DNA of 27,601 nucleotides, taken from a bacterium (lineage in GTDB: Bacteria > Blakebacterota > Blakebacteria > Blakebacterales > Blakebacteraceae). Within the stretch, counting starts at the first letter, position 1; each line of letters begins with the position of its first letter. The notes beneath the pieces were generated by a model. The model did no database searches and was not told the origin of the DNA. It saw only the letters and a program-made list of their open reading frames with translations. The stretch spans positions 1-27,601 of the forward strand of contig JALGVQ010000006.1 in assembly GCA_025774615.1 (NCBI GenBank), read 5' to 3'. Below are positions 20,206 to 26,322 of this stretch, piece after piece. Made by a program: the position numbers and the translations under genes.

Positions 20206-21861
20206 TCAGCCGCGGCGGTAGATGATCCCGCGGCTGTCGAGCCATGCTTCGACATGGATGCGGGGGCCCCGCGGGCTCCCGCGCCGGTATCGGATCTCAT
20301 AGATCCGGTCGGATGTGGCAACCTGCAGTTTATGACTCCCCTCGACTGTGACCGACCTGATCGATCCGGCTGGTATGTAAGCACGCCACTGCCGGGCCCG
20401 GAGCACGAGGGCCTCGGGAGTAAGGACGGCCTCACCCTTGCCCCGTTTCGTGAGTGGATCGTCACCTCTTCCATCAGATAGCCGCAGGAAGGACCAATGC
20501 CGGTTCGGGATGGGTCCCGGAGGAGCAAGTTCGCGGCGTTCCTCACCGTTGAGTGCCACACTGCGCGCCCACGCGCGCAGGGGGTGGGGTCCGTCAGAAC
20601 CGAGTTCAAGATGGGTGCCGTCATGAAGACGGCCCTGGATATCGCACCCGAGACAGTAAACCGTACCGTCGGGCAGACCGCGGATCGCGTTCGACCTGCC
20701 ACAGGCAGGACAGCGCCAGAGCAGGCGCCCGACGTCGGCGGCGCTGCGGCTGCGCGGTGAAGGATCCGAGGGGTGGCTGGAGAGTTCATCCACCAGCCAC
20801 AGTTCGATGTCACGGTCCCGCCCGTGAGAAGCCGGATCCCCCCACGTGACGACTACCTCGGCGCGCCTCGGACCGCGGCCCCATCGGGGCCATAGCCGGT
20901 ACGAACCACCGAGGTTGACCGACATCACGGGTGCCCCTGACAGGGCGAGCAATCTCGACACCCCCGGCAGTATGGGAGATGGTCCGCCATCCCATGAACG
21001 CTCCCCTTCGGGAAAGATGCCGACCACTCCCCCGGCACGAAGGGTCTGCATCATCAACCTGATCGCCCCTGCGTCGGGTGCATAGCGCCTCAACCGGATA
21101 CAACCGAGTCCGCGGAGAAAAAGCCGCTGCCATGCGGGGCGGAACGCTTCGGCCGAGGTGAGGAACGAGATCGGCCGGGGGAATGCGGCGGCAAGAAGGA
21201 ATCCATCGAGATATGATCGATGGTTGGCGACCACCACAAGTGGTCCATCGGAGGGCACGCTTGATATCAGGGGGTGGCTCAGTCCGCACCAGGCCCTGAG
21301 CAACGGCCGGCACATTCCGCGCAGAAAGAGGTAGAGAGGAGGTATCGATGGAGGGGAGATCGTGGATCGCCATCGTCGGGGGTCAGGCGCGAAGGGAGTT
21401 GTCGCGCGCCATTCCTGAGCCCTCGGGCCGTACCGCTTGAGCAGGGCCGGCTCCTCGATGACAAGGACATACATGATCCAGGCAGCCGTGACTATCGGCG
21501 CAATGATCAGGGGACCGGTGGATATACTGAATGCCCCTGACCATCCGAGCAGCAGCAGGGAATAACCCCAGTACACCGGATGACGCGTAAGATGATACGG
21601 TCCTGTGGTCTGCAGTCCGGTTCGCCCTTCGGGTTTGTCCTCTTCAGTCAGAAAGGTGCCAAGCATGCCTCGCTGAAGAGTGCCCCAGACCGCCAGTAGA
21701 AGGCCGATACCGCCAACAGGTATCAGCACGACCTGTACCGCCGCCGGAAGAACGGAGAGAGAGAACCTGATGTCGAGGAACCGCCCGGCCCAGGAGAGCA
21801 GCCAGGGAAGGACGATCCAGACCAGGCCCCGGAGAGCGAGCATGTTAAGGCGGAAGAGCAT
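20206..21861 (-). CDS. Fusion: ICMT-like methyltransferase + PlsC acyltransferase + zinc ribbon
   Basis: This is a 551-residue multi-domain protein. Residues 1-165 form four or five membrane helices with the isoprenylcysteine/phospholipid methyltransferase signature: GPYHLTRHPVYWG (87-99) and then EEPALLKRYG (136-145). Residues 180-350 are a PlsC-type acyltransferase with NHRSYLDG (catalytic His214, Asp219) and FPEGERS (283-289). Residues 384-406 hold CPAC...CLGC, a four-Cys zinc ribbon. Residues ~475-525 read like a GRAM/PH-like barrel (EAVLTPEALVLRARQWRAYI). Every catalytic motif is intact. The pieces suggest a lipid-modifying enzyme at the inner membrane, perhaps acylating a lysophospholipid or ornithine-type lipid and methylating a lipid; substrates are unknown. 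It converges on the M14 gene and diverges from secD. Confidence 0.82.
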   Translation of the reverse strand: MLFRLNMLALRGLVWIVLPWLLSWAGRFLDIRFSLSVLPAAVQVVLIPVGGIGLLLAVWGTLQRGMLGTFLTEEDKPEGRTGLQTTGPYHLTRHPVYWGYSLLLLGWSGAFSISTGPLIIAPIVTAAWIMYVLVIEEPALLKRYGPRAQEWRATTPFAPDPRRWRSTISPPSIPPLYLFLRGMCRPLLRAWCGLSHPLISSVPSDGPLVVVANHRSYLDGFLLAAAFPRPISFLTSAEAFRPAWQRLFLRGLGCIRLRRYAPDAGAIRLMMQTLRAGGVVGIFPEGERSWDGGPSPILPGVSRLLALSGAPVMSVNLGGSYRLWPRWGRGPRRAEVVVTWGDPASHGRDRDIELWLVDELSSHPSDPSPRSRSAADVGRLLWRCPACGRSNAIRGLPDGTVYCLGCDIQGRLHDGTHLELGSDGPHPLRAWARSVALNGEERRELAPPGPIPNRHWSFLRLSDGRGDDPLTKRGKGEAVLTPEALVLRARQWRAYIPAGSIRSVTVEGSHKLQVATSDRIYEIRYRRGSPRGPRIHVEAWLDSRGIIYRRG

Positions 21862-26092: not shown

Positions 26093-26224
26093 TGTCCCGG
26101 AACATAGTCCCTGGACACAGTAGATGCGTTCGAAGCGCGAATGAGGTAAGATTTGCCGGGCATTTCGGATCGTGCCTTGATATACACGTGGTACGATGTA
26201 CTGAACGCGACAGGTGACATTCGC

Positions 26225-26322
26225 GGGGATTGATGGGGTCTGGTGGCCCCCGAGGCCTTCAAAGCCTTCTGCCGGGCGTTCGTAGCGTCCGGGGTGGGTT
26301 CGATTCCCACCCTTCCCCGCCA
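26225..26322 (+). tRNA. selC: tRNA-Sec (anticodon TCA)
   Basis: This 98-base gene folds as a selenocysteine tRNA. A 6-bp D stem (26235-26240 with 26245-26250) closes a 4-base loop TGGT. The anticodon stem GAGGC/GCCTT holds the loop CTTCAAA with anticodon TCA at 26259-26261. A 7-bp variable arm follows (26272-26278 with 26286-26292). The T arm GTGGG/CCCAC has the loop TTCGATT. Discriminator G26319 and an encoded CCA (26320-26322) complete it. The long D stem, 4-base D loop and TCA anticodon separate it from tRNA-Ser and suppressor tRNAs. The 8-bp acceptor (26225-26232 with 26311-26318) has two mismatches at pairs 6 and 7. SelB would use it to decode UGA as selenocysteine; selA, selB and selD are not in the window. 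Confidence 0.92.

Follow-up and report, generated by a model that had tools for sequence, protein, structure and literature searches.

Introduction

Lipid enzymes of the PlsC and ICMT/PEMT types are well known. The 1-acyl-sn-glycerol-3-phosphate acyltransferase of Thermotoga maritima (TmPlsC; 5KYM, PF01553) has 247 residues and carries no methyltransferase, ribbon or PH domain, and ICMT/PEMT enzymes, among them an archaeal ICMT (4A2N) and a eukaryotic ICMT (5VG9; PF04191/PF04140), stand alone. Acyl-[ACP]-phospholipid O-acyltransferases of the PRK08633 and PRK08043 type likewise have a PlsC-type domain joined to another lipid enzyme; to our knowledge, the partner in these fusions is not a methyltransferase. 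Bacterial PHb domains (PF08000; PMC2817789) and eukaryotic PH, PTB and EVH1 domains are built from a seven-stranded sheet and a C-terminal helix.

Here we describe a protein in which relatives of all these parts occur in one chain. It is encoded in a stretch of 27,601 nucleotides, referred to as the window, from a bacterial contig. With TmPlsC it shares a common fold and the HX4D and PEG/R motifs; with the ICMT structures it shares RHPxY and EE motifs that align; and its tail has the strands and helix of a PH fold. Unlike ICMT/PEMT enzymes, its methyltransferase domain is fused to an acyltransferase, with an acceptor that in most carriers is unlikely to be phosphatidylethanolamine (PE) made by the phosphatidylserine (PS) route; unlike TmPlsC, it occurs in genomes that, where sampled, hold a separate PlsC of the plain type; and unlike known PH-fold proteins, its tail goes together with a Cys4 ribbon and a PlsC domain. 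Every part comes from a known superfamily, and the combined architecture is apparently undescribed; an initial annotation made from the sequence had supposed this of the enzyme's substrates. In the open-access papers covered by our search, we found no published description of the fusion and nothing relevant on PlsC with a zinc ribbon, isoprenylcysteine methyltransferase or a fused phospholipid methyltransferase.

Results

Domain composition of the protein

The open reading frame starts with ATG and comprises 551 codons with no internal stops (Table 1). Pfam assigned PF04191 (PEMT) to residues 52-146 (E 1.5e-9; score 38.6 bits, cut-off 25) and PF01553 (Acyltransferase) to residues 201-316 (E 8.6e-20; score 71.3 bits, cut-off 23), and no family, including no PH family, to the rest of the chain. 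PF04140 (ICMT) stayed under its cut-off of 24 in the window protein (12.7 bits) and was cleared by the L032 member with 29.7 bits; PF04191 was also matched in the L032, L034, L113 and L220 members. NCBIfam holds no whole-protein model close to the window protein, the best matches falling far under their cut-offs; the match to the PRK08633/PRK08043 type is weak, at 59 bits far below the cut-off of 1221. A profile of four phylum-spanning members matched the ICMT structures 4a2n (E 9.6e-9) and 5vg9 (E 1.9e-8), with the RHP and EE motifs aligned, and the four-row profile matched 5kym at E 1.7e-22.

The SAM motif of the methyltransferase half reads G87-x-Y89, R93-H94-P95-x-Y97, G106 and E136-E137, and the catalytic motifs of the PlsC part are H214-x4-D219 and F283-P284-E285-G286-E287-R288. 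Between residues 384 and 406, two CxxC knuckles (CPxC...CLxC) form a putative zinc ribbon. The strings quoted in the initial annotation (GPYHLTRHPVY, EEPALLKRYG, NHRSYLD, FPEG and CPAC...CLGC) are all present.

Elsewhere in the window lies a predicted selenocysteine tRNA (Table 1), and some TGA codons may therefore be decoded as Sec in this genome.

Table 1. Features of the window protein and of related loci, with their coordinates (window positions unless a locus is named).
Feature	Location	Strand	Remarks
Four-part protein	20206..21861	-	551 aa, PEMT/ICMT - PlsC - Cys4 ribbon - PH fold
PEMT/ICMT-type membrane methyltransferase half, residues 1-165	21367..21861	-	PF04191, ICMT-structure profile, residue conservation; model confidence low
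PlsC-type glycerophospholipid acyltransferase, residues 199-345	20827..21267	-	PF01553, VIA-align Z 21.2 to 5kym over 205 residues, fixed residues
Cys4 zinc-ribbon-like knot, residues 381-410	20632..20721	-	C384-P-x-C387 ... C403-x-x-C406
PH-superfold tail, residues 446-551	20209..20526	-	7 strands + C-terminal helix; AlphaFold, Foldseek, VIA-align
Predicted selenocysteine tRNA	26224..26322	+	anticodon TCA
PEMT/ICMT-LGT fusions	L189:1-1449 (G003), L191:1246-2463 (G002)		
Permuted form, Cys4 ribbon + PH-type domain before PlsC	L038, L041, L042, L043, L045, L116, L122		one clade
Split pair, ribbon+PH frame and PlsC frame	L117:2043-2822 and 1408-2664 (G334)	-	overlapping frames
Two different four-part proteins in tandem	L226:5781-8870 (G403)	-	one genome
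Repeat element interrupting the fusion gene	L002:1403-1505 (G001)		roughly 100 bases

Predicted structure

The AlphaFold model of the whole chain, computed from a 12-row alignment, has a mean pLDDT of 74; PlsC and the tail are well predicted, whereas residues 1-165, modelled as helical, reach a pLDDT of only about 40-74. The PlsC part superposes on TmPlsC (Table 1). Residues 454-543 fold into seven strands and a C-terminal helix (pLDDT mostly 82-93), match PH, PTB and EVH1 domains with VIA-align Z scores of about 11-12 over 83-103 residues, in agreement with Foldseek, and adopt the same PH fold when modelled in isolation, as had been proposed for the tail from its sequence. No ICMT structure ranked among the top Foldseek or VIA-align matches to the full-length model, a result of little weight since structure searches barely probe the poorly predicted methyltransferase region. 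Because of this low confidence, the evidence for the methyltransferase half is sequence-based, and residue conservation and profile matches, rather than the predicted structure, support a SAM pocket in residues 1-165.

Conservation of the active-site motifs

Across 32 four-part proteins less than 70% identical to one another, P19, G53, G87, Y89, R93, H94, P95, G106, E137, L140, Y151 and P156 are near-invariant in the methyltransferase half. Within the SAM motif, P95 is present in 32/32 proteins, H94 in 31/32, and R93 and E137 in 30/32 each; E136 and Y97 also reach 18/20 in a narrower set of 20. One member has RQPLY at this place, and a strict [RK]HPx[YFW] match is also missing from three more of the 32. 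The acyltransferase residues H214, D219, E285 and R288 are fixed in all 32, with D291, P311, P325, W327 and others near-invariant as well, and the cysteines C384, C387, C403 and C406 occur in every one of the 32 proteins and of 12 aligned tails, bearing out the proposed CxxC/CxxC ribbon. The average column of the methyltransferase half is poorly conserved (mean 0.38, n = 32), and a near-invariant motif in such a half is what one would expect of an active site when the membrane scaffold around it diverges. The PH part is also poorly conserved (mean 0.29, n = 32), so that no PH ligand can be named.

Between the window and its closest relative, the sister species G001, rough dN/dS values, computed with synonymous sites near saturation, are 0.46 for residues 1-77, 0.11 for the SAM half (88-165), 0.07 for PlsC, 0.10 for the ribbon, 0.14 for PH and 0.12 for the neighbouring SecD. 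Both halves look active because the SAM motif, HX4D, PExxR and the four cysteines are near-invariant across the 32 proteins, in keeping with the earlier reading that no catalytic residue has been lost.

Occurrence of the fusion across phyla

The four-part fusion, counted where a single open frame gave a match starting at or before profile position 83 and ending at or after position 408, is intact in 68 genomes in several phyla, including the window's own. Whole-genome searches found it in 29 of the 103 genomes of G325's phylum, in 11/100 genomes of L032's phylum (MAGs titled Bipolaricaulota), in 26/199 of L034's phylum (MAGs titled Neomarinimicrobiota) and in one further lineage, G311; the window's own phylum is represented by four genomes only. 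A scan of GTDB contigs placed four-part proteins in L032 and L033 (Bipolaricaulota-titled) and L034 (Neomarinimicrobiota-titled). G325's phylum is probably Thermotogota, and a canonical PlsC from it matches TmPlsC with E 3e-51. Two of the carriers, G325 and G407, are single-contig genomes, each 99% complete. The fusion is thus real, conserved across phyla and not peculiar to the window's genome: recurrence of the same part order in several phyla is not a matter of chance. An early idea of novelty at the level of the genus, prompted by G002 and G004, in which the methyltransferase half is missing, was overturned by the finding of the fusion in other phyla. One genome encodes two different four-part proteins in tandem (Table 1).

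A constant core of PlsC, ribbon and PH domain

The initial annotation had treated the protein as a bifunctional four-part unit. The fusion and its conserved motifs stand; the constant unit is, however, the combination of PlsC, ribbon and PH domain, to which the methyltransferase half is added as a partner, one that relatives lack or carry in interrupted form. The GTDB contig scan found PlsC, ribbon and tail without the methyltransferase in KSB1, Spirochaetes and others, and a permuted order, with the ribbon and PH-type tail preceding PlsC, in Calditrichia and others. The C-terminal tails of three- and four-part proteins and the N-terminal heads of the permuted ones represent one and the same module, with an hhalign probability of 98.8% (E 1.3e-16). 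This module was seen 12 times in 386 genomes and shares a chain with PlsC in 11/12 cases; in the exception, G334, the ribbon+PH frame overlaps the start of the PlsC gene, forming a natural split pair (Table 1). The fused, permuted and split forms are a strong pointer to a ribbon+PH module that functions with PlsC. The G334 pair adjoins a gene resembling family-2 glycosyltransferases.

A quick tree of PlsC domains groups the architectures strongly, the four-part state requiring 3 changes, compared with 22 in shuffles. All permuted proteins fall into a single clade (96), and another (100) unites the window and G001 with G002, which lacks the methyltransferase.

Loss and interruption in close relatives

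In G002, from a sister genus of the same family, the gene occupies the same place beside secD and lacks the methyltransferase half. Since the window, G001 and G002 fall in one clade, G002 has most simply lost this half, although the tree cannot prove the direction. G001, a sister species in the window's genus, keeps both halves out of frame, the break being due to roughly 95 extra bases in the loop before GPYHLTRHP. The inserted sequence has 24 matches in G001, 16 in G000 (the window's genome) and more in G002 and G003, with no match to an Rfam family. An assembly slip was considered for this break; a mobile or repeat element is likelier, because the extra bases match dozens of places in the phylum's four genomes. 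Missing in G002 and interrupted in G001, the methyltransferase half is dispensable in some close relatives.

Proteins of the sister genus combine the same PEMT/ICMT domain with a prolipoprotein diacylglyceryl transferase (LGT; PF01790, E 5e-16; Table 1), and within the window's family the methyltransferase domain appears as a recurrent partner of lipid transferases. Another long PEMT fusion, of about 520-584 residues and with a C-terminal part that has no Pfam family, occurs in G000 (L199, contig C93) and G001 (L194, contig C333).

Genome context and lipid pathway

Every carrier sampled encodes, apart from the fusion, a PlsC-family protein that scores highly and has roughly 210-300 residues (carriers within the 14-genome sample: G000, G001, G311, G325, G407, G393 and G482), and the fusion is therefore probably not the housekeeping phosphatidic acid enzyme. 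A search for PS decarboxylase, positive in the controls E. coli and B. subtilis and negative in T. maritima, gave no match in 11/14 intact carriers; the three in which it detected the enzyme are the window's genome, G311 and the genome of L034. As far as the gene content of these 11 genomes indicates, PE from the PS route is improbable as a general methyl acceptor and unlikely to be the acceptor in most carriers.

Conserved neighbours, a possibility raised by the initial annotation, did not emerge: no neighbouring gene is common to carriers across phyla, and the links are clade-local only. In family f238 the gene lies downstream of a two-component system of response regulator and histidine kinase in G325, G405 and G407 (in G407 the genes are arranged end to end), a hint of envelope-stress control of the fusion in that clade. 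Three-part PlsC+ribbon genes at L224, L230 and L123 are followed by genes for a similar membrane protein, presumably one resembling a sodium/glutamate symporter, with no Pfam match.

Discussion

On the observed fusion, its recurrence, the conservation of its motifs, the PH fold and the modular independence of the core, we build the following model for catalysis, substrates and regulation. We lean towards a bifunctional membrane-lipid enzyme that joins a second lysolipid acyltransferase to a SAM-dependent lipid methyltransferase. The core of PlsC, Cys4 ribbon and PH domain would constitute a second, non-canonical lysophospholipid acyltransferase, whose HX4D/PExxR site, by analogy with the family, would acylate a lysolipid on the cytoplasmic side of the membrane, with acyl-ACP or acyl-CoA as the donor. 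The ribbon+PH module may place or regulate the acyltransferase through a lipid headgroup or a protein partner, and the membrane-embedded ICMT/PEMT-type half may methylate the same lipid, or its product, in a SAM-dependent reaction.

What if the N-terminal half no longer methylates anything? It could be a mere membrane anchor or substrate channel of methyltransferase origin, making the protein a membrane-anchored acyltransferase. The loss of this half in G002 and its break in G001, where the core shows no visible decay, would fit such a role, as would the fast evolution of residues 1-77 and the altered motif of a few members such as the one with RQPLY. An anchor, however, has no need of RHP...E, whereas the SAM motif is among the near-invariant residues in 32 divergent proteins and purifying selection on the SAM half is about as strong as on SecD; we judge a pure anchor or channel unlikely. 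The chance that the fusion itself merely reflects an assembly or frame error in a metagenome-assembled genome is negligible: the window's genome is in 324 contigs and the reading frame of its nearest relative is broken at the joint, but the break in G001 is explained by the roughly 95-base element, of which some 20 other copies exist there, and the same fusion occurs in single-contig G325 and G407 and in dozens of other genomes. An assembly chimera is ruled out by this recurrence.

More specific is the proposal of a phosphatidylethanolamine N-methyltransferase joined to PlsC, in which PlsC would act at an early step, producing phosphatidic acid, and the PEMT half at the last, yielding methylated PE or phosphatidylcholine. 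PF04191 is named for PE methylation, and three carriers do have PS decarboxylase. Most of the intact carriers do not detectably have it, although other routes to PE are possible, and a canonical PlsC for phosphatidic acid is already present in each carrier sampled, so that this arrangement is quite improbable. Returning to a bifunctional enzyme, we tentatively speculate that a multi-phylum family methylates and acylates one lipid whose acceptor is not PE, giving rise to an uncharacterised methylated polar lipid, and that this activity is gated by a ribbon+PH module that senses the state of the membrane.

The combination of parts is conserved in several deep bacterial lineages and is not represented by a whole-protein model in Pfam or NCBIfam. 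The membrane-spanning lipids of Thermotogota have biosynthetic steps that are unknown (PMC8788747). If G325's phylum is indeed Thermotogota, the product of the fusion could be sought in the lipidome of culturable bacteria.
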